From a bacterium (GTDB lineage: Bacteria; Joyebacterota; Joyebacteria; Joyebacterales; Joyebacteraceae): a stretch of DNA of 33,776 nucleotides. Of this stretch, positions 2,156-19,860 are shown piece after piece. Location of the stretch: the NCBI GenBank assembly GCA_025774935.1, contig JALGZK010000022.1, forward strand, positions 1-33,776. The letters are read 5' to 3'. A program made the position numbers and the translations under genes. Every line of letters begins with the position of its first letter. Positions within the stretch are counted from its first letter, which is position 1. The notes beneath the pieces are model-generated. The model had not been told where the DNA came from. It did no database searches and was given only the letters and a program-made list of their open reading frames with translations.

Positions 2156-2187
2156 AGCCGCCGTCGGGCTCGCTCCCGGCGGCGGCT
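2156..2187 (+). terminator. GC-rich hairpin terminator after the first gene
   Basis: Arms 2156-2168 and 2175-2187 pair over 13 positions with one T-G wobble, leaving a six-base loop (CTCGCT). The 3' arm continues into TCTTC. It lies 20 bases after the stop of the preceding gene, and a tRNA-like sequence begins seven bases further on. Confidence 0.8.
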
Positions 2188-2193
2188 TCTTCA

Positions 2194-2219
2194 TGGCGGG
2201 CCCGACATGGAGGTTCGAC
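2194..2219 (-). repeat. Degenerate tRNA-3'-end-like repeat (TLR), leftmost copy
   Basis: The plus strand reads TGGCGGGCCCGAC, a spacer and TTCGAC, resembling the complement of the 3' end of the tRNA-Asp gene at 19783-19860 (CCA end, acceptor strand and T-loop). It is the most diverged copy, and no 5' half of a tRNA is present. Its position right after a hairpin is the same as for the better copies at 9384, 13029, 14815, 16229 and 18014. Confidence 0.4.
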
Positions 2220-2333
2220 GGTCGCTCGGCACTGTGATACTCTGCTGTTGACCGTCGTCGCGAGGTCTCGACCGGGGCCTCCCGTGACTCCCGCTGCGGA
2301 TCGGACGTCACGCCACCGACCGGAGGTGTTGCC

Positions 2334-3551
2334 ATCAGGACCGTCTGGCCGCTCGTGATGACCACACTGCTCTTGCTCGCCTTCTCCGCTCCTGCCCAGC
2401 CTCCCGTGGAGGTGCCTCACGGCTCGGGCGTTCCGGCCGACACTCTGGAGCTCACGGAGGAGCAGCGGCGGGAGCTCGAGCGCCTCGCGACGCTCGGCTA
2501 CATCACGGGCAGCGAGCGCGCCCCGGCGGCCGAAGGGGTGACGGTCCTCGAGCCGGACGCGTACGAGGGGTACACCATCTACGTCTCGCGCGACTTCTCT
2601 GGCGCGTTCGTCGTGGACATGTCCGGAACGATCGTCCACACCTGGCACGACGGCCTCACCCAGGAGTGGACGCGGGCCTGGGCGTACCCCGACGGGAGCG
2701 TGCTCCGGGTCTCCTCCGGACCCGCGAGACTCGTCAAGCTCGACCGCGATTCCAGGGTCGTCTGGACCTACGGCGACGACAGGTTCAAGGCGCACCACGA
2801 TTTCCAGGTTCAGCCCGACGGCACGGTCTACGTCCTGATGCGGCAGCTCCGCAGGTTCCCGTGGCTGTCGGACCGCGTGATCCAGGACGACATGGTCTGC
2901 GCTCTCGAACCCGACGGGGACGCCGTGAGCGAGATCGGGTGCGTATCACTTCCGGAGGCCTTCCACGCGTCGGAGTACCGAGACATGCTCCACGCCGATT
3001 GGTTCCTGCCCGGCGCAGATCCCTTCCACACGAACTCGGTCGAGGTCCTCGACGGGAGCGTCGAGCACGCCGCGTTCCGCGCAGGGAACGTGCTCGTCTC
3101 CATCCGCAACATGGACTGCCTGGCGGTTCTCGACCCGGAGTCCGGGAGCATCGTCTGGACCGACAGGGGCCTCTGGCAGCGGCAGCACGAGGCCCGGATC
3201 ACCCCCGACGGGCGGATCATGCTGTTCGACAACAGGAAGTTCGACGGGGAGTCCCGCGTCGTCGAGTACGACGTCGCGAGCAGGGAGATCGTGTGGAGCT
3301 ACGCGGCGCCCGGGTTCTTCTCGCGGGGTGCGGGCGCCCAGCAGCTCCTTCCGAACGGCAACATCCTCGTCACCGAATCGACCAGAGGGCGGCTCTTCGA
3401 GATCACGCGCGACGGCCGCGTCGTCTGGGAGTATCTGAACCCGCGGAGGATTCGCGACGGGAAGACGATCGTCCGCATCCCGCGTGCCTACCGCGTGCCG
3501 TACGACTACTTCACGGGTGAGTTCGGTAAAGAGCTGTCGACGCGGCGGTAG
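2334..3551 (+). CDS. Exported arylsulfotransferase-like (ASST family) beta-propeller protein
   Basis: The repeated beta-propeller pattern matches the arylsulfotransferase-like family: GTIVHTWHDG, RVVWTYGDD, GSIVWTDRG, REIVWSYAAPG and GRVVWEYLNP, with His-containing motifs (KAHHDF, FHTNSVEV, QRQHEARI) where the family has conserved His residues. Family members move sulfate groups between phenolic compounds, or are propellers of unknown activity, so the substrate is not known. The start is uncertain. The first ordinary starts are GTG 2355 and ATG 2358, which give a short export signal. In frame at 2334 is ATC, preceded by GGAGG and seven bases, the same ribosome-site layout as neighbouring genes; it would give the better signal peptide RTVWPLVMTTLLLLAFSAPA. 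I give the longer form. The gene converges on the oxidoreductase gene to its right. Confidence 0.7.
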   Translation: MRTVWPLVMTTLLLLAFSAPAQPPVEVPHGSGVPADTLELTEEQRRELERLATLGYITGSERAPAAEGVTVLEPDAYEGYTIYVSRDFSGAFVVDMSGTIVHTWHDGLTQEWTRAWAYPDGSVLRVSSGPARLVKLDRDSRVVWTYGDDRFKAHHDFQVQPDGTVYVLMRQLRRFPWLSDRVIQDDMVCALEPDGDAVSEIGCVSLPEAFHASEYRDMLHADWFLPGADPFHTNSVEVLDGSVEHAAFRAGNVLVSIRNMDCLAVLDPESGSIVWTDRGLWQRQHEARITPDGRIMLFDNRKFDGESRVVEYDVASREIVWSYAAPGFFSRGAGAQQLLPNGNILVTESTRGRLFEITRDGRVVWEYLNPRRIRDGKTIVRIPRAYRVPYDYFTGEFGKELSTRR

Positions 3552-3603
3552 CGCCCGACGGCATCGCAGCCCGGATTCGGTTCGTTGTAGGGTGTGGCGG
3601 AAC

Positions 3604-3634
3604 CGCGGGCGAGACGTGTTCGTCCCTGCCCGCG
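3604..3634. terminator. Weak hairpin between convergent genes
   Basis: Arms CGCGGGC (3604-3610) and GCCCGCG (3628-3634) are perfectly complementary, with a 17-base loop in which GACG and CGTC can extend the pairing. It lies between the ends of two convergent genes, so a bidirectional terminator is plausible. There is no T-run. Confidence 0.4.
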
Positions 3635-3642
3635 TTCGCCTT

Positions 3643-4617
3643 CTACATCGTGACGACGAGTTTCCCCAGTACGAGACCCTCCCGCTGGTACTGGAGCGCC
3701 TCCGGGACCTCGTCGAGAGAATAGGTCCTGTCGATGTGCGGCACCATCCTGCCCGCCTCGATGAGCTCCGTCAGGAAGTCCACGTCCGCCTCCCGGAACG
3801 GCTTCCACATCCCCATGCCCATCTTCTTCCTGCTGCCGGTCATCTTGACGAGTAGGCCGAGGATGATGGCTCCGAAGAACTGACCGATCGGACCCCCGAC
3901 GATGGTGTAGATCCCCTCGGGGGTCAGGGACCGCCGGCAGTCGGCCAGAGAGTGGTACGCTGCGATGTCGAGGATACGATCGTACCGCTTGCCGTTCCTC
4001 GTGAAGTCCTCCCGGGTGTGGTCGATGACGTGGTCCGCGCCAATCGACTTGAGCATCTCAAGCTTCGTGGTGCCGTCCACGGCGGTCACCTCGGCCCCGA
4101 ACTCCTTCGCCATCTGCACCGCGAACACGCCCACGTTCCCGCCAGCACCGTTAATCAGTACCTTCTCTTCAGGTCGGACCTCCCCCTTGCTGCGGATGGT
4201 CTGCAGTCCGAGGACCGCAGCCTGGGGGATGGTGGCTGCCTGCTCGAAGGTCAGGTTCCTGGGCTTAGGGGCAAAGGCGCGCTCCGGAGCACACGCGTAC
4301 TCGGCGAACGCCCCGAAACCGAACTCGGTCAGGTCCCCGAAGACCTCGTCGCCCGGCGTGAATCGCGTCACTTCGCCGCCGACCGCTTCAACGCGCCCCG
4401 CCACGTCCAGGCCCAGACGAGCGCTCTTCGGCCTGAACAGGCCGGTCGCGAGGCGCGTGATCAGGGGCAAGCCTGTCAGGTAGTCCAGGTCGGCGGCGTT
4501 CACGGAGGCGGCGTGGACCTTCACGAGGACTTCGTCTTCGCCCGGCGTCGGTGTCGGGACCTCTTCCAGCCTGATATCCTCGGGCGGACAGTATCTGCGA
4601 CGGACGATCGCCCGCAT
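3643..4617 (-). CDS. MDR-family NAD(P)-dependent oxidoreductase (quinone reductase/alcohol dehydrogenase-like)
   Basis: This 324-residue protein belongs to the medium-chain dehydrogenase/reductase superfamily. The GroES-like N-terminal domain is recognisable from VLVKVHAASVNAADL (about 31-45) and GLDVAGRVEAVG (69-80). The Rossmann domain carries the nucleotide-binding motif GAGGNVG (157-163). The catalytic-zinc Cys and the structural Cys cluster of classical alcohol dehydrogenases are not seen, which points to a zinc-independent, quinone-oxidoreductase-like member. It probably reduces a carbonyl or enone using NADPH; the substrate cannot be told. GGAGA precedes the ATG at the right spacing. 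It is the last gene of a three-gene minus-strand operon, 20 bases after the DUF4386 gene. Confidence 0.85.
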   Translation of the reverse strand: MRAIVRRRYCPPEDIRLEEVPTPTPGEDEVLVKVHAASVNAADLDYLTGLPLITRLATGLFRPKSARLGLDVAGRVEAVGGEVTRFTPGDEVFGDLTEFGFGAFAEYACAPERAFAPKPRNLTFEQAATIPQAAVLGLQTIRSKGEVRPEEKVLINGAGGNVGVFAVQMAKEFGAEVTAVDGTTKLEMLKSIGADHVIDHTREDFTRNGKRYDRILDIAAYHSLADCRRSLTPEGIYTIVGGPIGQFFGAIILGLLVKMTGSRKKMGMGMWKPFREADVDFLTELIEAGRMVPHIDRTYSLDEVPEALQYQREGLVLGKLVVTM

Positions 4618-4637
4618 GAGTGTCTCCTTCCCACACC

Positions 4638-5345
4638 TCAGCCCGCGTGCCTGACGTCGATGCCCCTGATCAGGAGCCAGAGCCCGATCACGGCCTCGAA
4701 GACGACGACCGGGATCACGGCGACATTCTGAACCGTCGACGGGAGGCTGGGCCAGAGGATGCTCGCTATGGTGGCGACGAACATGAGCAGGAACGCCGCC
4801 ATTCCCCAGATGGACAGGGCCCTTGGGATGTACCTGGACCTGTAGAACAGGTAGCAGAAGACGATCGTCCCCAGACTGATGAATACGGAGAGAATGGAGA
4901 GCCCGGCCACGCGCACGTTGAGGAGAAGGGCGACCAGGACCTGCTGCTGCTGTGGATCGACGACCGTCGAGTGGCCGCCTCCGCTCAGCACGTGCAGCAC
5001 GACGAGGGCCGCGAGCACCGTGACGGTCCCCACGATGGCCTCTCCCAGCCTCCAGAGGAGGGCCAGGAGAGCGAGTCCCCTGCTCACCCTTCTCAGGATC
5101 ACGAAGAGAGCCACGGACAGGAGCACGACGCTCGGGTACATGACGAGGTCGTAGGCGGCGCCGAGTCGATACAGGGACTCGTTGGCCGTGATGCTGTCGA
5201 TCGTCGCTGCCGGATCGCCAGGCACGACGAGCCTGAGGTCGGTGAGGATAACGGCGACCACGGAGGTCACGATAATCAGGAGGTACGCGAGTCCGGCGAC
5301 TCTCGCAGCTCTCTGCAGTGACGCATCCGGGGTGATTGGGGCCAT
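4638..5345 (-). CDS. DUF4386 family integral membrane protein
   Basis: This 235-residue protein has about six hydrophobic segments (for example AGLAYLLIIVTSVVAVIL near 18-34) and matches the DUF4386 family: an N-terminal ARVAGLAYLLIIV-type helix, a YRLGAAYDLVMYPSVVLL segment and a C-terminal Leu/Val-rich helix. No biochemical role is established for the family. The start ATG lies four bases after the stop of the upstream beta-lactamase-like gene and its AGGAG overlaps that gene's end, so translation is probably coupled. Confidence 0.8.
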   Translation of the reverse strand: MAPITPDASLQRAARVAGLAYLLIIVTSVVAVILTDLRLVVPGDPAATIDSITANESLYRLGAAYDLVMYPSVVLLSVALFVILRRVSRGLALLALLWRLGEAIVGTVTVLAALVVLHVLSGGGHSTVVDPQQQQVLVALLLNVRVAGLSILSVFISLGTIVFCYLFYRSRYIPRALSIWGMAAFLLMFVATIASILWPSLPSTVQNVAVIPVVVFEAVIGLWLLIRGIDVRHAG

Positions 5346-5349
5346 CTCG

Positions 5350-6972: not shown

Positions 6973-7167
6973 CACCGTGCCCCCTGAATCAGGTGGTGGT
7001 CTGCGGATATGAGAGTTGTAGGTAGGTTTGCGAGCATCAGAGCCTAACACCGAACCTCCGTCGGTCAAAGAGGAACCCACGCCATCACCATCGATCCGCT
7101 CGCGTGTCGTCTGCGCTCGCCGTGGGATCATCGACCCGCGTGGTGGCGCCGGGAGCGTGTCCTCCTG

Positions 7168-7173
7168 TATACT
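7168..7173 (+). promoter_or_regulatory. Possible -10 box for the first beta-helix gene
   Basis: The divergent intergenic region 6973-7242 contains TATACT, five of six matches to the -10 consensus, about 70 bases upstream of the beta-helix ATG. I see no good -35 box at the right distance. Nothing else recognisable lies in this region. Confidence 0.3.
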
Positions 7174-7242
7174 CGTCGCACCAACGACAGAACCGGACAC
7201 CGGCCAGAAGCCTACCCCGGACCCGCACGGGAGGAGACTGCC

Positions 7243-8381: not shown

Positions 8382-8407
8382 GCCGAGTCCGGCGCAACGA
8401 GACAGAC

Positions 8408-9326: not shown

Positions 9327-9349
9327 CAGGATGCCAGGAGGCTGGAAGA

Positions 9350-9379
9350 GCGAAGGGCCCGCTCATACGAGCGGGCCCT
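9350..9379. terminator. GC-rich hairpin terminator after the lipoprotein gene
   Basis: A perfect 13-bp stem, GAAGGGCCCGCTC (9350-9362) with GAGCGGGCCCTTC (9367-9379), and a four-base loop ATAC. It lies 23 bases after the lipoprotein stop and four bases before a tRNA-like repeat. The stem is also positioned to end transcription from the minus-strand radical SAM gene. Confidence 0.85.
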
Positions 9380-9383
9380 TCAA

Positions 9384-9412
9384 CATGGCGGGGCGTACTA
9401 GACGGGTTTCGA
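9384..9412 (-). repeat. tRNA-3'-end-like repeat (TLR)
   Basis: The plus strand reads TGGCGGGGC, five bases GTACT, then AGACGGGTTTCGAAC. Read on the minus strand this resembles a T-loop, T-stem and acceptor ending in CCA. It differs from the copy at 16229 at two of 29 positions. No 5' tRNA half is present, so it is not a working tRNA. Confidence 0.65.
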
Positions 9413-9599
9413 ACTCCAGACCGTGCGGTGGAGTCGAGTGAGAGGGAACGGCTTCGGTTAGCGGCGCATTCAGCGGCACCAGCATGAGCAGGGGCTCGCT
9501 CAGCAGCACAGCAGCAGGCGGGGCCAATCGGCCGGAGATCCCGTCGTCAAGCGGGACGGTGGAGCCTTCTCTGCTCGCGCATCCCGCGGTCCGGTCTCC

Positions 9600-11111
9600 T
9601 CAGGTCTGGCCGCGACCCGCACCGAACGCTTCCGGGGCCGTCAGAAGCTCGTAGCACTTGCGGAAGTGGTAGCCGTACACGGCCAGCGCGAACGCGAGGG
9701 GCAGGGCGCGCGGTCTTGTGAAGAGCGTCCACAGGAGCAAGCTCGGGAAGCGGAAGCGCTCCCTTCCGACGATGGTCAGGCTGTAGAGAGACCGGAAGAC
9801 GGTCCCGGCCTGGGAGAATCCGAGCCCGAGACACGCGCTCCTCGGCCTGTACTCCCGTAGGAACGTTCTCAGACGTCGGTAGTACTCCGGAGGTGAGTAG
9901 ATCTCCTGCACGAGCTTCCTGTAGCCCTCCTGAAGCGACTCGAGACCCATGCGAGGGATGATGTTCGTCGTCCCGTCCGCGTTGTCGCCTGACACGGGCT
10001 CCCCAATCCGACCCTCGCTTTCCAGCCTCTTGTAGAGCGCAGTGTCAACAGGTGCTTGGAGCACCCCGACCATCGCCGTGGCGATACCGCTGGCCTGAAT
10101 GAAGTCGGCCAGCCGCTGGAAGATCGCCGGCGTGTCGTGGTCAAAGCCGACGATGAAGCCCGCCTGGACCTCGAGGCCCGCGCGCTGAATCCGCTTGACG
10201 TCTGCGAGCAGATCGCGACTCCGATTCGGCCTCTTCCTGCACTCTCGCAGGCTCATCTCATCCGGCGACTCGATCCCCACAAAGACGGTGCCGAATCCTG
10301 CGCGCACCATCATCTCCATCAGCTCCTCGTCATCCGCGATGTCAATCGTGACCTGCGCGCTGAAGCCGATGCCGCGCTTGTCCTTCTGCCACTCGATCAG
10401 CGCCGGCAGGAGTTCTGAACGGAGACGCCTCCTGCTGCCACCGAGGTTGTCGTCGACGAAGGGGACCATTCCTCGCCAGCCCAACTCGTGGATGCTGTCC
10501 AGCTCGTTGAGCACCTGAGCCACCGTCTTGGTCCGCCAACGGTGCCCGAGCAGCTGGGTCACATTGCAGAACTCGCAACTGTGCGGGCAGCCTCGCGAGA
10601 ACTGGACGCCCACCGAGGCGTACTTGGGGAGGTCCGCGAGAGCCCACAGAGGTGCGGGGGTCCCGTGTAGATCGGCGAAGCTGTCGGACCTGTAGACCCG
10701 GCGCGGGTCGCCGCGTTCGAGGTCTGCCAGGAATTGCGGGAGCGTCAACTCCGCCTCGTTGAGCACGAAGTGGTCGACGTCCCCGAACTTCTCGTGCTCG
10801 GTCGTGAACAGCGGCCCCCCGGCGACAACGGTCAATCCGGCTTGCTTGCAGCGGGCGATCACCTGGTGCGCTGAGTCCCGCTGTACGATCATCCCGCTCA
10901 CCAGCGCGCAGTCCGCCCACGCGAGGTCCGCGTCCGTGAGCCTGGTCACGTTCTGGTCAACGAGCCGCAGATCCCAATCAGCCGGCAGCATGGCTGCAAC
11001 CGTCAGGAGACCGAGCGGCGGCTGCGCGGACTTCCTGCGAATCAGTCTGAGAGCGTTCGTGAAGCTCCAGAAGGTCTCCGGGCACTCGGGGTAGATGAGC
11101 AGGGCTTTCAC
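9600..11111 (-). CDS. B12-binding-domain radical SAM protein, DUF4070/HpnP-like (paralogue A)
   Basis: This 503-residue protein is a class B-type radical SAM enzyme. The N-terminal region (about 1-135) has the cobalamin-binding-domain fold pattern (MKALLIYP, PPLGLLTVAAMLP, VVAGGPLFTTEHE). The radical SAM core follows with the cluster-binding Cys175-x3-Cys179-x2-Cys182 (SRGCPHSCEFC), then FVDDN and FVGIESPDE motifs. The C-terminal part matches the DUF4070 region found in hopanoid C-2 methylase HpnP and relatives. Such enzymes often methylate unactivated carbons or modify lipids, but the substrate cannot be told. It is divergent from a close paralogue at 11479-12957, with which it shares long identical stretches. 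The minus-strand hairpin at 9350-9379 probably ends its transcript. Confidence 0.85.
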   Translation of the reverse strand: MKALLIYPECPETFWSFTNALRLIRRKSAQPPLGLLTVAAMLPADWDLRLVDQNVTRLTDADLAWADCALVSGMIVQRDSAHQVIARCKQAGLTVVAGGPLFTTEHEKFGDVDHFVLNEAELTLPQFLADLERGDPRRVYRSDSFADLHGTPAPLWALADLPKYASVGVQFSRGCPHSCEFCNVTQLLGHRWRTKTVAQVLNELDSIHELGWRGMVPFVDDNLGGSRRRLRSELLPALIEWQKDKRGIGFSAQVTIDIADDEELMEMMVRAGFGTVFVGIESPDEMSLRECRKRPNRSRDLLADVKRIQRAGLEVQAGFIVGFDHDTPAIFQRLADFIQASGIATAMVGVLQAPVDTALYKRLESEGRIGEPVSGDNADGTTNIIPRMGLESLQEGYRKLVQEIYSPPEYYRRLRTFLREYRPRSACLGLGFSQAGTVFRSLYSLTIVGRERFRFPSLLLWTLFTRPRALPLAFALAVYGYHFRKCYELLTAPEAFGAGRGQT

Positions 11112-11478
11112 CTGGCCTCCCGGGGGTGGCCGCGCCTCCCCGGAGAATAGTAGTGAGGCTGCTGCACAAACACCTCATCAAGTATGCCGCGCCACCAATG
11201 GTGTGTAAAGAGCCTCCATGCACGACCGGCCGACCGCGTCCCGGACGGGAGGTCGCAGGCGCGGCTCGGCGAGAGGGGAGCCAAGGGCGTCGAGCAGCCC
11301 CGGGAGTGCCGCTGACGCCGGTTAGCAAGACAAGCATTGACTTATCCACCGAATGGTGCCACTGTAGCGTTAGAGGTAGATGCCTCGAATGTCCTCACCG
11401 GACACCTGTTCCGATCTGACCTTCCTTCGGTCTCTTTGGGATATCTGCCCGGCCTTTGGCCAATCCAGGGGAGACCGC
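11112..11478. promoter_or_regulatory. Divergent promoter region between two radical SAM genes
   Basis: No gene is supported here. The region separates the start codons of two divergent paralogues and must hold both promoters. It contains a small palindrome CACCAATGGTG at 11193-11203 and a TTGACT at about 11338 that could be a -35 box for the plus gene, though I see no convincing -10 box at the right spacing. Confidence 0.35.
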
Positions 11479-12957
11479 ATGAACGCACTTCTCATCTATC
11501 CGCGTTTCCCGGACACGTTCTGGGGATTCAAGCACTCACTCAAAGTGATTCGCAAGAAGGCGAGCTCTCCCCCGCTGGGACTGCTGACCGTGGCCGGCAT
11601 GCTGCCGGGGGACTGGAAGCTCCTTCTGGTCGACATGAACGTCTTGGAGCTCTCCGACGAGGACCTCGCGTGGGCGGACTGCGCGATGATAAGCGCGATG
11701 GTGGTGCAGCGCGATTCCGCCACGGAGGTCGTCGCCCGCTGCAAGGAAAACGGGGTCACGGTAATCGCAGGAGGACCGCTCTTCTCGAGCGAACACGATG
11801 ACTTCGGTGACGTCGACCATTTCGTCCTCGGCGAGGCGGAGGTGACCCTTGGGCCCTTCCTGAAGGACTTCGAGCGCGGCAGGGCTCGGCGGATCTACAA
11901 CTCCTGCGATTGGGCCGACCTCGGCGAGACGCCCGTCCCCCGGTGGGATCTGGTGCACCCGCGGCACTACGCTTCGAGGAACATTCAGTACTCGCGCGGG
12001 TGCCCACACGATTGCGACTTCTGCAGCGTCACGCAGCTGTTCGGGCACCGACCGCGCACCAAGAGCGCCGCGCAGATGGTCGAGGAACTCGATAGCCTCT
12101 ACGAACTGGGGTGGAGGGGAACCGTCGGCTTCGTCGACGACAACCTGATCGGTAACAGGAGGAGGCTCATCGAGGAACTGCTGCCGGCTCTCGTGGAGTG
12201 GCGGCGCGGGAAGTGGGGCATGCCCTTCAGCACGCAGGTGACCGTCAACCTGGCGGACGACCCCGAGCTCATGGGAGCTATGGTCAGTGCAGGATTCGAC
12301 ACCGTGTTCGTCGGCATCGAGAGCGTCGACGACGACGCTTTCATCGAGTGCAACAAGAGACAGAATGAGAAGCGGGACCTTCTCGAAGACGTCCGGCGCA
12401 TTCAGCGTGCCGGGATGCAGGTTCAGGGCGGGTTCATTGTCGGATTCGACCACGACACGCCGTCGGTATTCGAGCGTATGGCGGCGTTCATCCAACAGAG
12501 CGGCATCGCTACGGCCATGGTAGGGACGCTGCAGGCTCCGGCAGGAACAAGACTCTACGAACGCCTCCGCGGAGAGGGTCGTATACGCTACTCCTTCTCG
12601 GGCAACAACACGGACGGGACGACCAACATCATCCCGGCCATGGGCACTGAGCACCTTGAGCAGGGCTACAAAGACATGATGAAGGAGCTCTACGCGCCCA
12701 GGAACTACTACGCCCGACTGCGGACCTTCCTCAGGGAATACAGGCCGAGGCCCGCGAGGGCGCGGCTGCGCGGCTGGCACATTCTGGCGTTCTTCCGCTC
12801 ACTGTACTACCTGAGCGTGGTGGGCAAGGAGCGCTTCCATTACCCGGGGCTCCTGATCTGGACCGTCTTCCGCAACCCAAGGGCCTTCCCCACTGCCATC
12901 GTCCTCGCCATTTCGGGCTACCACTTGAGGCTCTGCGTGGGTTCCATGGGGATCTAG
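11479..12957 (+). CDS. B12-binding-domain radical SAM protein, DUF4070/HpnP-like (paralogue B)
   Basis: This 492-residue protein has the same layout as its divergent neighbour: cobalamin-domain-like N-terminus (MNALLIYP, PPLGLLTVAGMLPGDW), radical SAM cluster Cys175, Cys179, Cys182 (SRGCPHDCDFC), FVDDN and FVGIES motifs, the GFDHDTP segment and a DUF4070-like C-terminus ending in a hydrophobic stretch. Residues line up with the paralogue almost without gaps through the first 190 positions. The ATG at 11479 is chosen because GGGGAG precedes it and it matches the paralogue's N-terminus; an upstream ATG at 11380 only adds unrelated sequence. Substrate unknown. A hairpin and tRNA-like repeat follow the stop. 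Confidence 0.85.
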   Translation: MNALLIYPRFPDTFWGFKHSLKVIRKKASSPPLGLLTVAGMLPGDWKLLLVDMNVLELSDEDLAWADCAMISAMVVQRDSATEVVARCKENGVTVIAGGPLFSSEHDDFGDVDHFVLGEAEVTLGPFLKDFERGRARRIYNSCDWADLGETPVPRWDLVHPRHYASRNIQYSRGCPHDCDFCSVTQLFGHRPRTKSAAQMVEELDSLYELGWRGTVGFVDDNLIGNRRRLIEELLPALVEWRRGKWGMPFSTQVTVNLADDPELMGAMVSAGFDTVFVGIESVDDDAFIECNKRQNEKRDLLEDVRRIQRAGMQVQGGFIVGFDHDTPSVFERMAAFIQQSGIATAMVGTLQAPAGTRLYERLRGEGRIRYSFSGNNTDGTTNIIPAMGTEHLEQGYKDMMKELYAPRNYYARLRTFLREYRPRPARARLRGWHILAFFRSLYYLSVVGKERFHYPGLLIWTVFRNPRAFPTAIVLAISGYHLRLCVGSMGI

Positions 12958-12992
12958 CCGACTCACGAACACAGGCCACACTCAGTTACTAC

Positions 12993-13024
12993 GAAGAGCC
13001 CGGTCTGAATGGACCGGGCTCTTC
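12993..13024 (+). terminator. GC-rich hairpin terminator after radical SAM paralogue B
   Basis: A perfect 13-bp stem, GAAGAGCCCGGTC (12993-13005) with GACCGGGCTCTTC (13012-13024), and a six-base loop. It starts 36 bases after the stop codon and is followed after four bases by a tRNA-like repeat. Confidence 0.85.
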
Positions 13025-13028
13025 ATGG

Positions 13029-13057
13029 TGGCGGGGCATACGAAACGAGCTTCGAAC
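13029..13057 (-). repeat. tRNA-3'-end-like repeat (TLR)
   Basis: The plus strand reads TGGCGGGGC, ATACG, then AAACGAGCTTCGAAC. It matches the copy at 16229 at 24 of 29 positions. Sequence to its right is homologous to that right of the copy at 18014, so this repeat is part of a larger duplication. Confidence 0.6.
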
Positions 13058-13200
13058 TTCCCGCCTGCCGGTCGACTCGAGCGACCGAGAGAGGCTTCAT
13101 TCCGTCGCAAGTGACGCGGCACGGCTGTATCGGGCTCACCTGGCGATGCCACTCCACAGCCGGCCGACGCGGTGCTCGCACAGCCTGCCTCGGAATGACG

Positions 13201-13229
13201 TTGCGGCAGCGGAATGGGAGTGATACCCT
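13201..13229 (+). promoter_or_regulatory. Predicted promoter of beta-helix gene 2
   Basis: TTGCGG (13201-13206) and TACCCT (13224-13229) are separated by 17 bases. The same layout, with TTGCAG and TAAACT, occurs upstream of beta-helix gene 3. A conserved GAGGGTTGGTCAGAATCACC follows the -10 box in both copies. Confidence 0.45.
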
Positions 13230-13298
13230 GAGGGTTGGTCAGAATCACCACCGACAAGCCGTGCGCCATGAGCAACACAGCCGGACGGGAGGTCTGCC

Positions 13299-14753
13299 AT
13301 GCGCTCCCTGCTGCTACTGGCACTTGTCCCCGTTGCCGCTTCCCTCGTCGTTCCGGTTCACGCTGCAACCTGGCACGTTCCATCCGAATGCCCCACGATC
13401 CAGGCAGGCATCGACTCCGCCGCCTTCGGAGACACCGTCCTCGTTGCCTGCGACACCTACTACGAGCACGACATCGTGATGAAGTCCGGTGTCTGCCTCA
13501 CGAGCGAGACGGGCTCGCCCGACTGTGTCACCATTGACGCGCAACAGGAGGGAAGGGTCATCTACTGCGTGGATGTTGACGACAGAGCAAGCATCGTCGG
13601 GCTCACGATCACTGGCGGTGACGCCACAGGAGCAGGGCTGGCGGACAGCCTGGGAGGAGGAATCTACTGCGAGACATCATCCCCCACCGTGGCGGACTGC
13701 GAGCTGACAGGCAATACTGCCAGCCTTGCCGGAGGGGGGATGTGTGCTTGGATAAACTCCGACCCCGACCTGACGGACTGCACGTTTGCTGAGAACAGCG
13801 TGAGCGGGTACGACGGAAGCGGGGGCGGCATGGTCGCCGCAATCGGCTGCTTTCCCTCGCTCACAGACTGCACCTTCTCAGACAATACCGCTTTCGCCGG
13901 AGGTGGCCTGATGTCCTACCTCTCCTGGCCGACCGTCACTCGGTGCACGTTCTCAACCAACAGCGCGTGGGCCGAGCTTGGAACTGAGACGGGAGGAGGC
14001 GGGATGAAGTGCTCCGAGTCCTGGCCGATCCTCACGGACTGCCTATTCGTGGACAATACATCTGCCGGTCTCAGTGGCGGCCTCCACCTGGGCGGATGCG
14101 AGCAGGCCACAATCACCAGCTGCCGCTTCGTGAGCAACACGGCCATCACCGGTGGCGGACTGGGAGCAAACAGCCAGGGGGACCGCGGGCTCGCAAGGCG
14201 TATGCGCTCAGTCACCAGTGGCGCTTACAGCCGTGGGACGAGCTCCGGTCGGCAGTCAGCAGAGCTGCTAGATTGCACCTTCGCACTGAATGAGGCGACG
14301 TTTGGCGGCGGGATGGCCTGCATCGATGAGACGGACCCCGTGCTGGTGAACTGCACGTTCTGCGCCAACGCGGCGTCGGACATGGGGGGCGGCGTGTACT
14401 GCGGCGGTGTCGGCAGCGTCAGGCTCACGAACTGCATCATCGCGTTCGGCACGAGCGGCAAGGCAGTGCAGGGCTACAGCGAAGTGGCAGTGTACTGCAG
14501 TGACATCTACGGGAACGCCGGAGGAGACTGGGTCGACGTCATCACGGGGCAGGACCTGATCAACGACAACTTCAGCGAGGACCCGCTCTTCTGTTTCGGC
14601 AGCAACGAGCCTCGGCCTCTCACACTCTATGAGACCTCCCCCTGTGCGGAGGCGAACAACCCTGCGTGCGGCCGCGTCGGCGCAAGGGAGGTCGGCTGCG
14701 ACACCGTCGTTCAAGCGAGCAGTTGGGGGACGATCAAGGCGATGTTCCGGTAG
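13299..14753 (+). CDS. Secreted right-handed beta-helix protein 2 with C-terminal [10 protein letters not shown] tag
   Basis: This 484-residue exported protein has signal peptide [22 protein letters not shown], the opening [19 protein letters not shown], and about ten beta-helix coils of the type PTVxDCxFxxNxAxxGGG ([59 protein letters not shown]). Such folds serve as polysaccharide-active enzymes, adhesins or structural surface proteins; no catalytic residues are identifiable. An Arg/Ser-rich stretch of about 24 residues near 290-315 interrupts the coil pattern. The last residues are [17 protein letters not shown] precedes the ATG. It is a paralogue of the gene at 18286, most similar over the first 130 residues and the upstream DNA. 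Confidence 0.85.
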
Positions 14754-14778
14754 GTCACTGCCCGGGAACAGGGAACGA

Positions 14779-14810
14779 GAAGAGGCCTGCTCAAGTGAGC
14801 GGGCCTCTTC
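14779..14810. terminator. GC-rich hairpin terminator between beta-helix gene 2 and the methyltransferase gene
   Basis: A 14-position stem (14779-14792 with 14797-14810) has one T-G wobble and an AAGT loop. It lies 25 bases after the beta-helix stop and could serve the convergent methyltransferase gene as well. Confidence 0.85.
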
Positions 14811-14814
14811 GCAA

Positions 14815-14842
14815 TGGCGGGGCCGACGAGACTCTTTCGAGC
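14815..14842 (-). repeat. tRNA-3'-end-like repeat with 20 bases identical to the tRNA-Asp 3' end
   Basis: Bases 14815-14834 are identical to 19783-19802, the CCA end, discriminator, acceptor strand, T-stem and first T-loop bases of the tRNA-Asp gene. The remainder, TTTCGAGC, resembles the ends of the other repeats. Exact duplication of a tRNA 3' end is the usual footprint of an integrative element's attachment site. Confidence 0.7.
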
Positions 14843-14951
14843 TCTGCCAATGACGCCGGACCACACGACGAGAGCGATCTGTAGCGAGGTTTCGGCCCTC
14901 TTGGGAGATGCCGATGCACAGAGGAGGCCACTCGGGCCCTCGTGCTTGGAC

Positions 14952-16034
14952 TCAATCCGCCCGCCTACTCGCTTCGATTAGGTTGAAGAGCGAGGGCGTG
15001 GGGGTGATTCGAGTGATGTCAAACCCGGCCTTCGAGAGCAGGTCTCGGAACTCCGCTTCGGTGCGCTCACGTCCGCTGTGGCTCATGACATGCATGTGCA
15101 GGTCCATGAACTTGTTGAAGTCTGGCTTGTTGAGATCCTCAAGTACAGCATCGAGGATGAAGACTCTGCCCCCTTCGTTCATGGCGTCGTGGCAGTTGCG
15201 GAGTATTGAAAGGCACTCCTCGTCGCCCCAATCGTGGATGATCTGCTGGAGGACGTAGATGTCGCCCCCCGCTGGCACGGTCTCAAAAAAGCTGCCTCCG
15301 ACAATCTCGCAGCGCAGGGCGACCGCTTCGTCCAGCTTGATGCCAGCAACCACCTCCGGCAGGTCGAATAGCACCCCGGTCAGCTTGGGATTGCTCGCCA
15401 GCGCCGCGCTGATAAGCGCACCCTGCCCGCCGCCAACGTCGACGATTCTCGCGGACTGCTCCTGGCCGAAGATCGCGCTGATGATGGGGCTGGATATCTC
15501 CGCCAAGCGGGTCATCCATGAATTGAAGAGCTTTCCGTCTTCAGGGCGGGACGCCAAGTAGTCGAAGTACCCTTGCCCAAAGACGTTCTCGAACGCCGAC
15601 TCTCCGGTTCGGATGCTTTGAGTCAGTGCCATCCATGGAGCCACCCAGGTCTTGTCGCCAATGAGCAGTGCCAGGAACCTGATCGAGCTCGCGGAGCTCG
15701 ACTCGAGAGCTTGCCCCATGGGTGTGGTTTCGAAGCGTCGCTTCGCGAGTTCCCGGAAGATGCCCTCGCTGGCCAGCGCTCGCATCAGCCTGTGCAGCGA
15801 GTCAGCGCGGGTCGAGGTCGCCTTCGCCAACTCGTCGATGCTCTTGCTGCCATTAGCCAGATGGTCTGCAATGTGCAGCTCTGCAGCAGTGTGGATGGAA
15901 ATGGCCTTGAAGAGGTTGCCGATAGACATCATCACTCGGACATTAGGAGGCATAAGGCTGTCAGCAAGGCCGCGAAGCCAATTGCTTATCCGAGTCAACG
16001 ACTTGAGTACAAAGGGCGGAGGCAATCTACGCAT
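14952..16034 (-). CDS. SAM-dependent O-methyltransferase (methyltransferase family 2)
   Basis: This 360-residue protein matches the plant/bacterial O-methyltransferase family that includes hydroxyneurosporene and polyketide methyltransferases. An N-terminal winged-helix dimerisation domain (AAELHIADHLANGSKSIDEL, RLMRALASEGIF) is followed by the SAM-binding domain with motif VDVGGGQGAL and the catalytic-His region IIHDWGDEECLSIL. It should transfer a methyl group from SAM to a hydroxyl of a small molecule; the substrate is unknown. The start at 16034 is set by AGGAGGT; the frame stays open to 16202 but there runs through a hairpin and non-coding DNA. Its upstream third has lower GC (about 53% by hand count over 15841-15900 and 15961-16020) than the surroundings, which hints at recent transfer. 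It is bracketed by tRNA-like repeats. Confidence 0.9.
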   Translation of the reverse strand: MRRLPPPFVLKSLTRISNWLRGLADSLMPPNVRVMMSIGNLFKAISIHTAAELHIADHLANGSKSIDELAKATSTRADSLHRLMRALASEGIFRELAKRRFETTPMGQALESSSASSIRFLALLIGDKTWVAPWMALTQSIRTGESAFENVFGQGYFDYLASRPEDGKLFNSWMTRLAEISSPIISAIFGQEQSARIVDVGGGQGALISAALASNPKLTGVLFDLPEVVAGIKLDEAVALRCEIVGGSFFETVPAGGDIYVLQQIIHDWGDEECLSILRNCHDAMNEGGRVFILDAVLEDLNKPDFNKFMDLHMHVMSHSGRERTEAEFRDLLSKAGFDITRITPTPSLFNLIEASRRAD

Positions 16035-16191
16035 TATCCACCTCCTGGGCCTGTTCACAGACCATGGTTGAACAGCTGGTGCTTCCTCTGTTCCCTTAGA
16101 GAACTGGTGGTGTTTGTTTGGACTTACGAACGGCGTGCTGGTTGCTGGCTCTGTGACCGTAGCGTCGAGCCCAGGCAGCTCAAGACAAAGC
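16035..16191. other. Intergenic region upstream of the methyltransferase gene
   Basis: A comparatively AT-rich stretch between the methyltransferase start and the next hairpin. It presumably holds that gene's promoter on the minus strand; I cannot point to convincing -10 and -35 boxes. Confidence 0.3.
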
Positions 16192-16223
16192 GAAGGGCCC
16201 AATCTCCACAGACTGGGCCCTTC
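16192..16223. terminator. GC-rich hairpin with no gene end directly to its left
   Basis: Arms GAAGGGCCCA (16192-16201) and TGGGCCCTTC (16214-16223) pair perfectly; pairing extends inward past an A/C mismatch. It is the only one of these hairpins without a plus-strand gene ending just to its left, so a gene may have been lost or replaced here by the methyltransferase gene. Confidence 0.75.
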
Positions 16224-16228
16224 CTAGC

Positions 16229-16257
16229 TGGCGGGGCGTAGTAGACGAGTTTCGAAC
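16229..16257 (-). repeat. tRNA-3'-end-like repeat (TLR), closest to consensus
   Basis: The plus strand reads TGGCGGGGC, GTAGT, then AGACGAGTTTCGAAC. It differs from the tRNA-Asp 3' end mainly by five inserted bases after TGGCGGGGC and two changes before TCGAAC. The copies at 9384 and 18014 each differ from it at two positions. Confidence 0.65.
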
Positions 16258-16446
16258 GGGCGTCGCGCTCTCCCATGGCGCACCTGACGGCAGTCCGTTG
16301 TTTGCCCTGGGTCGGCTTGCGCAGGCAGGCCGGATCAGGCGAGCGTCCGACCTCATTGATAAGCGCAGATGTGTGTGGTATCCTGGAGGATGATTCACCG
16401 CCGAGATCGTGGCGTCCTTCTTCAGCAACAAACCCAGGAGGATCTC
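16258..16446. other. Intergenic region upstream of the cohesin-like gene
   Basis: No gene is supported. The right part holds the predicted promoter at 16356-16384 and the ribosome site AGGAGG just before 16447; nothing else is recognisable. Confidence 0.3.
16356..16384 (+). promoter_or_regulatory. Predicted promoter of the cohesin-like gene
   Basis: TTGATA (16356-16361, five of six matches to the -35 consensus) and TATCCT (16379-16384, four of six to the -10 consensus) are separated by 17 bases. A start near 16391 would give a leader of about 55 bases before the ATG. Confidence 0.5.
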
Positions 16447-17904
16447 ATGACGAGTTGCTGCTATCGTTCCGGCCGGTCCATCCAAGGCACCGCGCGGACA
16501 GTCGCGGTTGCCGCGACGTTGATCCTGTGCGGCGCTTTCGTCGGCGCGGCTTCGGAGTCAGACCGCCCACCCTCCGCACTGCTCTGGCTGGACGGGCCGA
16601 GTGAGGTTGCGGCCGTCGGCTACGAGTTCACGGTTGCCGTGCGGCTGGACGACATCTCCAATGTGTACGGAATAGACATCTCGCTGAGCTTCGATGAGAC
16701 CTCGCTTGAGGTACTCGACGACGGCGGGGCACCCGGCATACAGATCTCCGTCGGGGACTGCCCCGCGCCTGACTTCGTCGTGGCGAACACTGCCGACAAC
16801 ACGGCGGGAACCATCCACTACGCCGTGACGCAGCTGGCCCCGACCCCACCCTGCTCCGGCGGCCTGGTCGCCGAGATTCGATTCCGTGCGATCAGTTCCG
16901 GGCCGTCCGTAGTCGAGTTCACGGCGAGCATTGTGAGCGACCCGAACGGACTTCCACTGGCGCACGAGACGCAGGACCTGGCCATAAACGTGGGTTACGG
17001 GGGGACACTCGAGCTCATCGGGCCGGGAGCCGCCGTGCAGGTCGGGGATGAATTCACCGCCGAGATCCAGCTCTCCGGTGTCGATGACGTGTACGGGGTG
17101 CAGATCGCTCTCAGCTTCGACGAGACCTGCCTTGAGGTGCTCGACGACGGCGGGGCGCCCGGCATCCAGATCCTGCCCGGCGACTGCCCGCAGCCGGATT
17201 TCGTTGTCCAGAACGCCGCTGACAACACGGCCGGTACCATTGAGTACGCAGTAACGCAACTCAATCCCACACCTGCGTGTTCCGGCGGCTTGGTCGCAAC
17301 GATCAGGTTCCGCGCCCTGCTGGCAGCAACAACGCTCGTGCAATTCACGAGCAGCATCGTGAGCGATCCGCTGGGTGCTGAGATACCACACGTGACTCAG
17401 GACCTCAGTGTCACGATAGAGTCCACTCCGGCTTTGCTCTGGCTCAATGGGCCGGACGACCCTGTGCCGGTCGGGGACGAATTCCCGGTTTCTCTACTGC
17501 TGGGCTACCTGAGCGACGTCTTTGGAGCGGAGGTCTCACTGGGATTTGATCCGACTTACCTGGAGGTGCTGGATGATGGGGCGGCACCGGGCATACAGAT
17601 CACGCCAGGCGACTGTCCCCAGCCGGACTTCGTTGTCCAGAATGCCGCGGATAACGTTGCCGGCACCATCGACTACGCCGTCACGCAGCTCGCGCCCACG
17701 CCGCCGTGTGATGGAGGCGTCGTCGCCGTGATGAGACTCGTTGGGCTTCAGGCCGGCGAGACCGAGATCCAGATCGTCGAGAGCGTCATCGCCAATCCCG
17801 ACGGCCTCCCCTTGGCACACGACACTCAGAACGTGATCATCAGCGTCGGCGGATCTCCGGTCGAACAGATGAGCTGGGGGACGATGAAGGCGCTTTATCG
17901 CTAA
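16447..17904 (+). CDS. Secreted protein with three cohesin-like repeats and C-terminal SWGTMKALYR tag
   Basis: This 485-residue protein has an N-terminal export signal (hydrophobic core VAVAATLILCGAFVGAA) and three tandem repeats of about 140 residues starting near 43, 185 and 328. Each contains a G-x-E-F strand, VYG(I/V)xIxLSFD-type strand, LEVLDDGGAPGIQI, GDCPxPDFVV and TIxYAVTQL, the pattern of cohesin-family beta-sandwich domains. Cys residues recur at the same places in each repeat (GDCP and the PPC/PAC before GG). Cohesins bind dockerins or act as surface scaffolds; no dockerin is seen in the window. The protein ends MSWGTMKALYR. ATG 16447 follows AGGAGGATCTC. Repeat conservation at DNA level suggests fairly recent internal triplication. 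Confidence 0.8.
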   Translation: MTSCCYRSGRSIQGTARTVAVAATLILCGAFVGAASESDRPPSALLWLDGPSEVAAVGYEFTVAVRLDDISNVYGIDISLSFDETSLEVLDDGGAPGIQISVGDCPAPDFVVANTADNTAGTIHYAVTQLAPTPPCSGGLVAEIRFRAISSGPSVVEFTASIVSDPNGLPLAHETQDLAINVGYGGTLELIGPGAAVQVGDEFTAEIQLSGVDDVYGVQIALSFDETCLEVLDDGGAPGIQILPGDCPQPDFVVQNAADNTAGTIEYAVTQLNPTPACSGGLVATIRFRALLAATTLVQFTSSIVSDPLGAEIPHVTQDLSVTIESTPALLWLNGPDDPVPVGDEFPVSLLLGYLSDVFGAEVSLGFDPTYLEVLDDGAAPGIQITPGDCPQPDFVVQNAADNVAGTIDYAVTQLAPTPPCDGGVVAVMRLVGLQAGETEIQIVESVIANPDGLPLAHDTQNVIISVGGSPVEQMSWGTMKALYR

Positions 17905-17978
17905 GCGCCGCTAGGCTTTGAGGGCGGGAGGCTCCAGAGTCGGTGTCCATGGCCCAAACGACCCAGCCGTGCACTGAA

Positions 17979-18008
17979 AGAGCCCGGTCCGAGTGGACCG
18001 GGCTCCTT
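17979..18008 (+). terminator. GC-rich hairpin terminator after the cohesin-like gene
   Basis: An 11-bp stem, 17980-17990 with 17995-18005, loop GAGT, extended outward past one mismatch. It starts about 75 bases after the stop, further than at the other loci. Confidence 0.8.
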
Positions 18009-18013
18009 CTGGC

Positions 18014-18042
18014 TGGCGGGGCATAGTAGACGAGTTTAGAAC
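18014..18042 (-). repeat. tRNA-3'-end-like repeat (TLR)
   Basis: The plus strand reads TGGCGGGGC, ATAGT, then AGACGAGTTTAGAAC, 27 of 29 identical to the copy at 16229. Flanking DNA to the right is homologous to that right of 13029. Confidence 0.65.
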
Positions 18043-18183
18043 CCTCTGGCCGCCGGTCGATCCGAGTGGCCGAGAGAGGCTTCATCCCATCGCGCGTGCT
18101 CGGCAGAGGTATGATCGGCTCACCTTGTGATGGCACTCCACAACCAGCCTACGGTGCGCCCGCGAGCCTACCAAAGAATGACG

Positions 18184-18212
18184 TTGCAGCAAGAGCAAGG
18201 GTACAGTAAACT
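18184..18212 (+). promoter_or_regulatory. Predicted promoter of beta-helix gene 3
   Basis: TTGCAG (18184-18189) and TAAACT (18207-18212), spaced 17 bases, lie in the same place as the TTGCGG/TACCCT pair of beta-helix gene 2. Downstream, GCTGTC and GACAGC (about 18252-18268) form a small hairpin in the leader. Confidence 0.5.
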
Positions 18213-18285
18213 GAGGGTTGGTCAGAATCACCATCGACAATCCCCCTCCGCGCTGTCTATTGGACAGCCAGACAGGAGGTCTGCC

Positions 18286-19719
18286 ATGCGCCCCCCGCTG
18301 CTACTGGCACTTGCCCTCGTTACCGTTTGCCTCGTCGTTCCGGTCCAAGCCGCCACCTGGCACGTTCCGTCCGAGTGTCCCACCATCCAGGCAGGCGTGG
18401 ATTCCGCTGCTGTCGGCGACACCGTGCTTGTCGCCTGCGACACCTACTACGAGCACGATATCGTGATGAAGTCCGGGGTCTGCCTCACTAGTGAGACAGG
18501 CGAGGCCGGCTGTGTCACCATCGATGCACAGCAACAGGGAAGGGTCATCTACTGCCTGAACGTGGGTGGCGCAGCCAGCATCGTGGGGTTCACCCTGACC
18601 GGCGGTCTCGCAACTGGGGCTGCAGTGTGGGACAGCTGCGGGGGCGGGATCTACTGCGAGGACTCGTCTCCCACGTTGGCGAACTGCACGTTCTTGGACA
18701 ACGGCTCCACTCTGGCAGGCGGCGGGCTGTTTTGCGGTATGAACATGAGTACCGCGCTAACGAATAGCACGCTGTGGCGTGACCGTGACTCGCCGCCCCC
18801 GATCCGGAGCGGCCCGACGGTCACAGACTGCATGTTCTCAGGGAACACCACCCAGACAGGAGGTGGTGCATTCTCCTATCTCTGCTCTCCGACGCTGACT
18901 CGTTGCACGTTCTCAGTCAACGCTGCCGAAAGGGGAGGCGGACTATGCTGCATGGGAGATGCCACGAGCCTCTCGGGCTGTACGTTCCTCGGCAACTGGG
19001 CTGAGCATGGAGGCGGTGGGATCTACATCACTGTTGGGTCATCCGCGACGTTCACTGATTGCGCGTTCTCACATAACACCTCCGCTGAGGACGGCGGGGC
19101 AATGCAGTGCGAAGAGCTCTCTTCTCCAGCGTTCACTGGCGTGGCTTTCACTCGGAACACAGCGGTCGGGTACGGGGGCGCGGTGTTCTGCAACGGTGCC
19201 TCTCCTACCTTCGATCACGTGGAACTCAACGGCAACACGGCGGGCGGTTTCGGGGGGGGCATGAGATTCAGTGGATCGTCCTCGCCCGTCCTCAACAACG
19301 CGACGCTCTCAGGCAACACGGCCGGAGATGGTAGTGGGCTTTACTGCGGCGACGGATCGTCAGTAACGGTCACGAACTGCATCATCGCATTTGGCGACGG
19401 CGCGAGCGCGGTCGGATCCGACGGCACAGGTGGCGCCACACTCTCCTGCTCTGACGTCTACGGGAATGAAGGTGGGGACTGGGTCGACTGCATCGAGGGT
19501 CAGGGCACGGTCAACGGCAACTTCAGCGCTGATCCGCTCTTCTGCTGGGACGAGATCGTCTTCACCCTCAACGCGAATTCCCCGTGCCTGCCGGGGAATC
19601 ACCCTGACGGTAGCAGCTGCGGGCTCATAGGGGCGGGGGGGATTGGCTGCCCGGCCACGGGGGTAGCCGAGAACGCCCATGAGACGAGCTGGAGCGCAAT
19701 CAAGGCCATGTACAGGTAG
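18286..19719 (+). CDS. Secreted right-handed beta-helix protein 3 with C-terminal SWSAIKAMYR tag
   Basis: This 477-residue exported protein has an N-terminal signal peptide (MRPPLLLALALVTVCLVVPVQA) and the opening [19 protein letters not shown], almost identical to beta-helix protein 2. Coils of the type SPTLANCTFLDNGSTLAGGG, SPTLTRCTFSVNAAERGGG and SATFTDCAFSHNTSAEDGG follow. A short Arg/Pro-rich stretch near 165-178 breaks the pattern. The last residues are TSWSAIKAMYR. ATG 18286 is chosen because AGGAGGT precedes it as in protein 2; the frame is open from 18127 but that part is leader DNA. It is probably a surface or secreted structural/adhesive protein, with no enzyme motif visible. The hairpin 27 bases after the stop is shared with the convergent tRNA-Asp gene. 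Confidence 0.85.
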   Translation: MRPPLLLALALVTVCLVVPVQAATWHVPSECPTIQAGVDSAAVGDTVLVACDTYYEHDIVMKSGVCLTSETGEAGCVTIDAQQQGRVIYCLNVGGAASIVGFTLTGGLATGAAVWDSCGGGIYCEDSSPTLANCTFLDNGSTLAGGGLFCGMNMSTALTNSTLWRDRDSPPPIRSGPTVTDCMFSGNTTQTGGGAFSYLCSPTLTRCTFSVNAAERGGGLCCMGDATSLSGCTFLGNWAEHGGGGIYITVGSSATFTDCAFSHNTSAEDGGAMQCEELSSPAFTGVAFTRNTAVGYGGAVFCNGASPTFDHVELNGNTAGGFGGGMRFSGSSSPVLNNATLSGNTAGDGSGLYCGDGSSVTVTNCIIAFGDGASAVGSDGTGGATLSCSDVYGNEGGDWVDCIEGQGTVNGNFSADPLFCWDEIVFTLNANSPCLPGNHPDGSSCGLIGAGGIGCPATGVAENAHETSWSAIKAMYR

Positions 19720-19745
19720 GCTGACAGCGACACCAGACATAAAGC

Positions 19746-19777
19746 GAAGGGCCCAATCCTATTGGACTGGGCCCTTC
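19746..19777. terminator. Bidirectional hairpin terminator between beta-helix gene 3 and tRNA-Asp
   Basis: Arms 19746-19759 and 19764-19777 pair at 13 of 14 positions (one A/C mismatch) with loop TATT. It lies five bases from the encoded CCA end of tRNA-Asp and serves both convergent units. Its spacing to the tRNA is the same as that of the other hairpins to their tRNA-like repeats. Confidence 0.85.
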
Positions 19778-19782
19778 TGCAG

Positions 19783-19860
19783 TGGCGGGGCCGACGAGAC
19801 TCGAACTCGCGACCTCCGGCGTGACAGGCCGGCGTTCTAACCAAACTGAACTACGACCCC
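19783..19860 (-). tRNA. tRNA-Asp (anticodon GTC), CCA encoded
   Basis: Read on the minus strand, acceptor GGGGTCG pairs with CGGCCCC, the discriminator is G and the CCA end is encoded. TA and GTTC begin the D-arm, the anticodon stem CCGGC/GCCGG encloses CTGTCAC (anticodon GTC), and the T-arm is GCGAG-TTCGAGT-CTCGT. Length and features match bacterial tRNA-Asp. Its 3' end faces the accessory block to the left, where six partial copies of this end lie. Confidence 0.97.

Follow-up and report, generated by a model that had tools for sequence, protein, structure and literature searches.

The stretch of DNA analysed here (the window) is contig JALGZK010000022.1 of assembly GCA_025774935.1, 33,776 nt in length, which is contig C31 in a genome (G000) of 3.24 Mb and 40 contigs. 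To the left of a tRNA-Asp gene, secreted beta-helix proteins, a cohesin-repeat protein, an O-methyltransferase and radical-SAM genes are carried in short cassettes, and the cassettes are separated by a recurring unit that consists of a GC-rich hairpin, a gap of 4-6 nt and a 28-29 nt site starting with TGGCGGGGC, which is complementary to the final nine bases of the tRNA-Asp gene. Five good copies of this unit were found left of tRNA-Asp (Table 1), and a strict pattern retrieved four copies within the window, against 0 expected by chance. The window was compared with a set of 20 genomes from one family, all of them metagenome-assembled genomes (MAGs), and a class-level search brought only the identical 20-genome set. 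Several related records are labelled Candidatus Eisenbacteria, and the isolate names of related records suggest a marine sediment origin.

A covariance model was trained on 39 copies, all from other genomes, and then run on the window, where it matched at 9347-9421, 12989-13064, 14775-14849, 16188-16264 and 17973-18049. The copy at 16188 gave the best value in the array (E = 3e-18), the other four ranged from 8e-18 to 4e-17, and the copy formed by the hairpin of tRNA-Asp itself reached E = 1.5e-22. An initial annotation, made from the sequence of the window alone, had listed six hairpin-repeat copies, of which five hold (repeats starting at 9386, 13029, 14815, 16229 and 18014, E ~1e-17), the first of them having been placed at 9384 instead of 9386; the sixth, at 2194, is unproven, as it scored 14 bits (E = 0.006) and was not clearly above the chance hairpins of the window. 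The accompanying statement that the hairpin arms vary yet keep their pairing proved right: 87.5% of cells were paired and 109 cells carried changes on both sides, compared with at most 31 when partners were slid and 43.6 (standard deviation 7.9) with shuffling. A hairpin is likewise present beside tRNA-Asp as described, only its placement had to be corrected, since the tRNA lies on the minus strand and the hairpins therefore lie 3′ of it, in the position of a terminator. As also described, five of six hairpins follow a plus-strand open reading frame (ORF), the exception being the hairpin at 16192, which follows a minus-strand gene. Strong Asp-type copies are confined to the window in the whole genome, so that they gather at tRNA-Asp and are not spread genome-wide.

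Comparison of the sites with the tRNA end distinguished several types: four copies in the window are of type B, and the copy at 14815 is of another type (A). In type B, the exact match to tRNA-Asp is limited to TGGCGGGGC, and the core is followed by the arm AGACGAGTTTCGAAC, the sequence after the core being RTAGTAGACGAGTTTCGAAC or a near match. Type A holds 20 nt of exact tRNA end and then TTTCGAGC, and type C, found in relatives, is an exact copy of ~25 nt of the tRNA end; the repeat of the tRNA 3′-end is thus 9, 20 and ~25 nt long in types B, A and C, respectively. We then inspected where the motif TTCGAAC lies in 29 strong-hairpin array sites of the Asp type, picked by hairpin and core only. 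The motif lies at position 18 in the native tRNA-Asp; among the sites, 23 had it at position 23, one at 22 and three, all of type C, at 18, while in two it was unrecognisable. In most cassette sites, TTCGAAC is therefore exactly 5 bp farther from the core than in the tRNAs, and this spacing is not a search artefact because the model used for retrieving the loci tolerates a 5-base difference in motif position. Identical cores without a hairpin lacked the motif in 200 of 211 cases. A corresponding displacement is known for a Listeria integrase, whose zinc-ribbon (ZD) motif is 5 bp nearer the centre in attB than in attP, and attB is ~10 bp shorter in several systems (PMC3783163). The 5-bp shift of an outer motif between two site types, as expected of large serine integrase elements, is thus observed here, and we infer that TTCGAAC is the outer (zinc-ribbon) motif of a serine integrase.

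The genes beyond tRNA-Asp (a SpoIID-domain gene and rpoA) are syntenic across the family, and cassettes are gained and lost next to them. In G005, G006, G013 and G014 a radical-SAM gene with its hairpin directly adjoins tRNA-Asp, and the distance between this gene and tRNA-Asp is 1,830 bp in G007, 3,021 bp in G004 and 6.75 kb (four cassettes) in the window. The gene is 98% identical between G004 and G006, and the two genomes are identical through ttcttgaa followed by TGGCGGGGC and split at the next base, G006 continuing into the tRNA and G004 into a type-B arm. Related genomes thus differ by gained intervals (G004, G007 and the window against the other four) with breaks inside the repeat, which is the outcome that the initial annotation had proposed to look for, and such gain and loss at a conserved tRNA between relatives is the mark of additive tRNA islands. 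The sister species G002 shows 89% identity over the tRNA flank and wholly different genes on the array side, and near-identical upstream ends with different cassettes behind them were found in the pairs G004/G008, G004/G005, G007/G009 and G004/G007. Moreover, genera g3 and g5 share 94-97% identity in the radical-SAM segment against 75.7% in rpoA, which indicates that cassettes move between genera. As far as sequence comparison goes, these cases demonstrate insertion at tRNA-Asp with breaks at the core, exchange of cassettes and transfer across genera. Separately, a stretch of 1,383 nt beside an integrase remnant is 99.8% identical in two genera (loci L280 and L275; G005:C175 and G013:C368), the G013 copy carrying an additional ~180 bp with a tRNA-Asp-type site in them; this could reflect a recent transfer or misbinning.

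The same architecture was found at tRNA-Glu and tRNA-Asn, with the cores TGGCGTCCC and TGGCTCCCC, respectively, in place of TGGCGGGGC, and with an arm common to all three classes. The core TGGCGTCCC equals the end of tRNA-Glu, and the array and the tRNA occur together on G001:C13; TGGCTCCCC was assigned to tRNA-Asn because an array of such sites on G007:C70 ends there. A second array in the window's genome, on contig C12, belongs to this tRNA-Asn type. As the native tRNA-Asn reads TGGCTCCTC in G007 and TGGCTCCTG in the window's genome, only TGGCTCC is common to tRNA-Asn and the array sites, and the crossover would therefore be confined to about seven bases in this class. Some tRNA-Asn-type sites carry a further arm family, TGGCTCCCCGGGGTGGTGTCTCAGAGCGTGATTC, in the same arrays (L099, that is, G000:C12, at 10205, 12384 and 16025; L092; L279). 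Mini-elements of ~75 bp, with a tRNA-Glu core, the arm TAATGCTGAGAAGTTGGAACC and a hairpin of their own but no gene, were also seen (L163, minus strand, 689-763; L158, 17507 and 19449; L160, 10976), and look like empty cassettes.

Several array-bearing relatives encode large serine integrases, which have Resolvase, Recombinase and Zn-ribbon domains, and candidates of this type lie at tRNA-Glu or tRNA-Asn sites in G003, G005, G007, G013 and G014. The integrase gene extends antisense into tRNA-Glu on G013:C51 and G003:C170, so that the tRNA sequence codes for the final residues of the protein, ASPTGxEPVLPP. An intact integrase on G005:C203 has its end on TGGCTCCCC, and remnants of the same gene also end on array sites in G005 and G013. 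In G007 a C-terminal remnant, 100% identical over 43 amino acids to the intact copy, ends on tRNA-Asn and closes a tRNA-Asn-type array, and a remnant in G014 ends on a tRNA-Asn-like sequence that was not called by ARAGORN. The type F arm is found behind an integrase end as well as behind ordinary hairpins, which links the integrase elements to the hairpin cassettes. At tRNA-Asn, the joint of integrase end, core and arm, the putative attP, forms an imperfect palindrome (14/24 pairs), a weak match; 32 of 2000 shuffles were as good. Counted from its centre, between core bases 5 and 6, the half-sites measure 23.5 bp in the cassette type and 18.5 bp in the tRNA type, giving sites of ~48 and ~38 bp. 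On viral contigs, only remote integrase relatives were found, with no adjacent tRNA. Serine integrases at tRNA ends are unusual, because every tRNA attB in one large mycobacterial survey was used by tyrosine integrases (PMC10654092). The initial annotation had a recombinase act from elsewhere, and no recombinase gene was indeed found within the array of the window; the tyrosine or integron-type enzyme that it had in mind appears less likely than a large serine integrase, which for the Asp array is suggested by the cases at tRNA-Glu and tRNA-Asn.

Based on these observations, the array probably consists of small mobile cassettes that entered serially, through site-specific recombination, at the 3′-end of tRNA-Asp, and the earlier proposal of serial insertion by a recombinase from elsewhere is supported in this respect by the clustering of Asp-type sites and the interval gains with breaks in the repeat. 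Each cassette would carry a recombination arm (~20 nt past the shared 9-nt core) at its start and a terminator-like hairpin at its end. A serine integrase provided in trans by another element would recombine the hairpin-core-arm site of a circular cassette with the hairpin-core-tRNA site, the crossover falling inside the final nine bases of the tRNA gene. The tRNA sequence would thereby be kept and the incoming hairpin would become its 3′ neighbour, while the previous hairpin and one copy of the core would remain as the left border. Because the incoming cassette carries its own hairpin, a fresh tRNA target would arise after each insertion, the tRNA with the newcomer's hairpin being a target again. 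Cassettes without an integrase gene would be non-autonomous passengers. More tentatively, the system may be a serine-integrase counterpart of the integron, a possibility to which we give somewhat less than even weight, with the tRNA and its terminator hairpin in the role of attI and the hairpin-core-arm in that of attC; arrays at three tRNAs would then grow and reshuffle via an enzyme encoded elsewhere.

Several points weigh against serial insertion by a serine integrase. No serine integrase was found in the window's genome or adjoining tRNA-Asp in the 20 genomes, and intact or partial genes of the candidate type occur in only 6 of the 20 genomes. In the hairpin half-site no symmetric motif stands out clearly, and reuse of a hybrid attL/attR site by a serine integrase would, according to the textbook picture, call for a directionality factor. 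For the three type-C copies without the 5-bp shift, conventional tRNA integration fits equally well. In addition, contig ends and misbinning limit some comparisons among the MAGs.

The strongest competitor, though an unlikely one, is RecA-dependent homologous recombination over the repeated 40-50 bp of hairpin and core, by uptake or unequal crossing over and with no dedicated recombinase, which would accord with the missing serine integrase in the window's genome. Hairpin and core are identical in some pairs (an array site and the tRNA site of G014), and at tRNA-Glu of G001 the similarity reaches ~60 nt upstream of the hairpin. Against this, many insertions join unlike hairpins, such as the new and the old one in G004, with only 9-14 nt of identity left, and neither a fixed arm with a 5-bp shift at three tRNA classes nor integrase genes ending exactly at the cores would be expected from RecA. 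Homologous recombination between hairpins may nevertheless contribute, and could well add to the later shuffling of cassettes.

A tyrosine recombinase, namely the integron integrase of contig C16 in the window's genome, XerC/XerD or a lost phage-type integrase targeting tRNA, is less probable still. It is usually tyrosine integrases that target tRNA 3′-ends (PMC4383910; PMC10654092), and XerC/XerD-like genes are present in almost all genomes and an integron-type integrase in about half. The occurrence of the integron integrase, however, does not follow that of the arrays: the array-rich genomes G001, G003, G004, G005 and G009 have Xer-type genes only, whereas G010, G012 and G016 have an integron-type integrase yet no matching type-A or type-B sites, and no tyrosine integrase or further PF00589 gene was found on the array contigs. 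The search for such enzymes elsewhere in the genome, suggested at the outset, thus returned XerC/XerD-like genes and the C16 integrase, the latter of which uses attC sites that the window lacks. That the units are mere bidirectional terminators trailed by degraded remains of tRNA, or copies of a small repeat scattered behind genes, in either case without gene mobility, is very improbable: some hairpins do score as terminators, some lie between convergent genes and the hairpin-site motif also occurs on contigs without a visible tRNA, but complete gene-plus-hairpin units are inserted exactly between core and tRNA, cassettes are exchanged behind identical upstream ends, and the comparisons of occupied and empty sites contradict a terminator-only reading.

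The array had been likened to an integron cassette array, and it behaves like one but is not an integron. The genome does encode a true integron, on contig C16 (L113) and not on C31, with an integron integrase (TIGR02249, 411 bits; 5302-6414, minus strand), an attI-like GTTAGAC and attC sites of 104-124 nt at 2637-2760 and 3558-3661. Scanning for foldable RYYYAAC...GTTRRRY sites found attC on the integron contigs L113, L114, L115 and L118, classical sites of about 104-126 nt, but the window and the C12 array gave no hit; with neither attC nor an adjacent integrase or attI in the window, an integron was rejected. The product of the first cassette of the C16 integron is a beta-helix protein whose C-terminal motif resembles the one in the window proteins. 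Hairpin transposition by HUH enzymes of the type that act on repetitive extragenic palindromes (REP), the REP-associated tyrosine transposases (RAYT), was discarded as the Y1 transposase PF01797 is absent from all 20 genomes. A DDE transposon with a 9-bp target duplication was likewise set aside, since the duplication invariably consists of the tRNA end and inspection by eye showed no terminal inverted repeats at the cassette ends, and no feature supported tRNA-primed reverse transcription.

Integrons are the standard example of dedicated stockpiling of single-gene cassettes, and the array shares with them a layout in which most cassettes hold a single gene, lie in the same orientation and have a recombination site to themselves, as well as growth at one end beside a fixed target, whereas its target is a tRNA gene and the window has no attC, attI or nearby integron integrase. 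The cassette chromosome recombinases (Ccr) of staphylococcal cassette chromosome (SCC) elements are large serine recombinases. Composite SCC islands hold serial elements at the 3′-end of orfX/rlmH, with short direct repeats, Ccr and recombinase-less pseudo-elements, and resemble the array in the serial layout at the 3′-end of one conserved gene and in the probable enzyme (PMC7029136). They differ in that tRNA 3′-ends (of three tRNAs) are used here, by cassettes of 1.4-4.5 kb with one to three genes, a terminator-like hairpin at each cassette end and mostly no integrase; membership in SCC was rejected, as the target is tRNA-Asp and not rlmH and no Resolvase-domain gene was found in the window's genome. 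Large serine integrases of the Listeria A118 type share the domain set, the 5-bp shift and the inferred ~48 and ~38 bp sites (PMC3783163), but seldom use tRNA genes (PMC10654092), and reuse of sites in a serial array is not their textbook behaviour. The additive flexible islands of Alteromonas, Actinomarinales and Methylopumilus have cassettes at tRNA genes with partial-tRNA direct repeats, use several tRNAs and are transferred between genera (PMC4119200, PMC7771536, PMC10872708); as far as the available parts of these reports describe them, their repeats are plain tRNA copies (e.g. 20 or 52 nt), with no conserved arm, hairpin border or serine integrase. Tycheposons also bring cargo to tRNA genes, but are described as 4-200 kb long and as having a tyrosine recombinase (PMC10872708), neither of which is seen here. 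With cassettes gained and lost at a conserved tRNA and attC lacking, the array is classed here as a new variant of the tRNA-anchored additive islands. Uncultured Eisenbacteria thus appear to stockpile cassettes at several tRNA genes with another site type and, most likely, another recombinase family than integrons, and in this way to move secreted-protein and metabolic genes between genera. If right, this would supply a mechanism for additive tRNA islands, for which the available parts of the published reports give none, and natural tRNA-targeted serine-integrase sites that are directly testable.

Table 1. Features of the cassette array in the window.
Feature	Position	Strand	Remarks
Doubtful degenerate copy	2159..2221	+	Hairpin and TGGCGGGCCCGACATGGAGGTTCGAC; E = 0.006, independent model; not claimed
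Hairpin	9352..9381	.	Precedes the 9386 site
Recombination site, type B	9386..9414	+	
Older cassette, 3643 nt	9386..13028	+	Radical-SAM/DUF4070 genes 9600-11111 (-) and 11380-12957 (+)
Hairpin after radical-SAM gene	12993..13024	.	Orthologous hairpin directly adjoins tRNA-Asp in four relatives
Recombination site, type B	13029..13057	+	Insertion point of the first of four cassettes beside the radical-SAM gene
Cassette 2, 1786 nt	13029..14814	+	Site 13029-13057; beta-helix protein gene 13299-14753
Hairpin closing cassette 2	14779..14810	.	
Recombination site, type A	14815..14842	+	First 20 nt equal the tRNA-Asp 3′-end, then TTTCGAGC
Cassette 3, 1414 nt	14815..16228	+	Site, then O-methyltransferase gene 14952-16202 (minus)
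Hairpin closing cassette 3	16192..16223	.	Near-identical to the hairpin of tRNA-Asp itself
Recombination site, type B	16229..16257	+	Matches the consensus exactly
Cassette 4, 1785 nt	16229..18013	+	Site 16229-16257; gene 16369-17904 with repeated cohesin-type segments
Hairpin closing cassette 4	17976..18008	.	
Recombination site, type B	18014..18042	+	Core TGGCGGGGC and type-B arm ATAGTAGACGAGTTTAGAAC
Cassette 5, 1769 nt	18014..19782	+	Site, secreted beta-helix protein gene, hairpin
Cassette 5 gene	18127..19719		ORF from 18127; possible start ATG 18287; end 19719; C-terminus SWSAIKAMYR
Hairpin 3′ of tRNA-Asp	19746..19777	.	Terminator position; now the right end of the newest cassette
tRNA-Asp(gtc)	19783..19860	-	Insertion target; last 9 nt GCCCCGCCA, the shared core; ARAGORN, Rfam RF00005

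Cassettes 2 and 5 are paralogous from the first base of the site onward. Further cargo in relatives, named by reading the sequences and not by family search, includes an aminotransferase, an aldo/keto reductase, a transporter and a pyruvate/phosphate-dikinase-like enzyme, among others. The cargo gives the impression of general cellular functions, comparable to what integron or additive-island cassettes carry. The secreted proteins of both tRNA-array and integron cassettes share a short C-terminal motif, SWGxIKAxYR or similar, which ends the products of 13299-14753, 16369-17904 and 18127-19719 in the window and of genes in many relatives, and looks like a sorting or attachment signal of the lineage. 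The divergent, paralogous radical-SAM/DUF4070 pair resembles a pair in G001 and G018 (L064, L087), which is also located beside matching hairpin sites. In the left part of the window, 5350-7509 (minus strand) encodes a protein with ankyrin repeats fused to a beta-lactamase-type domain.

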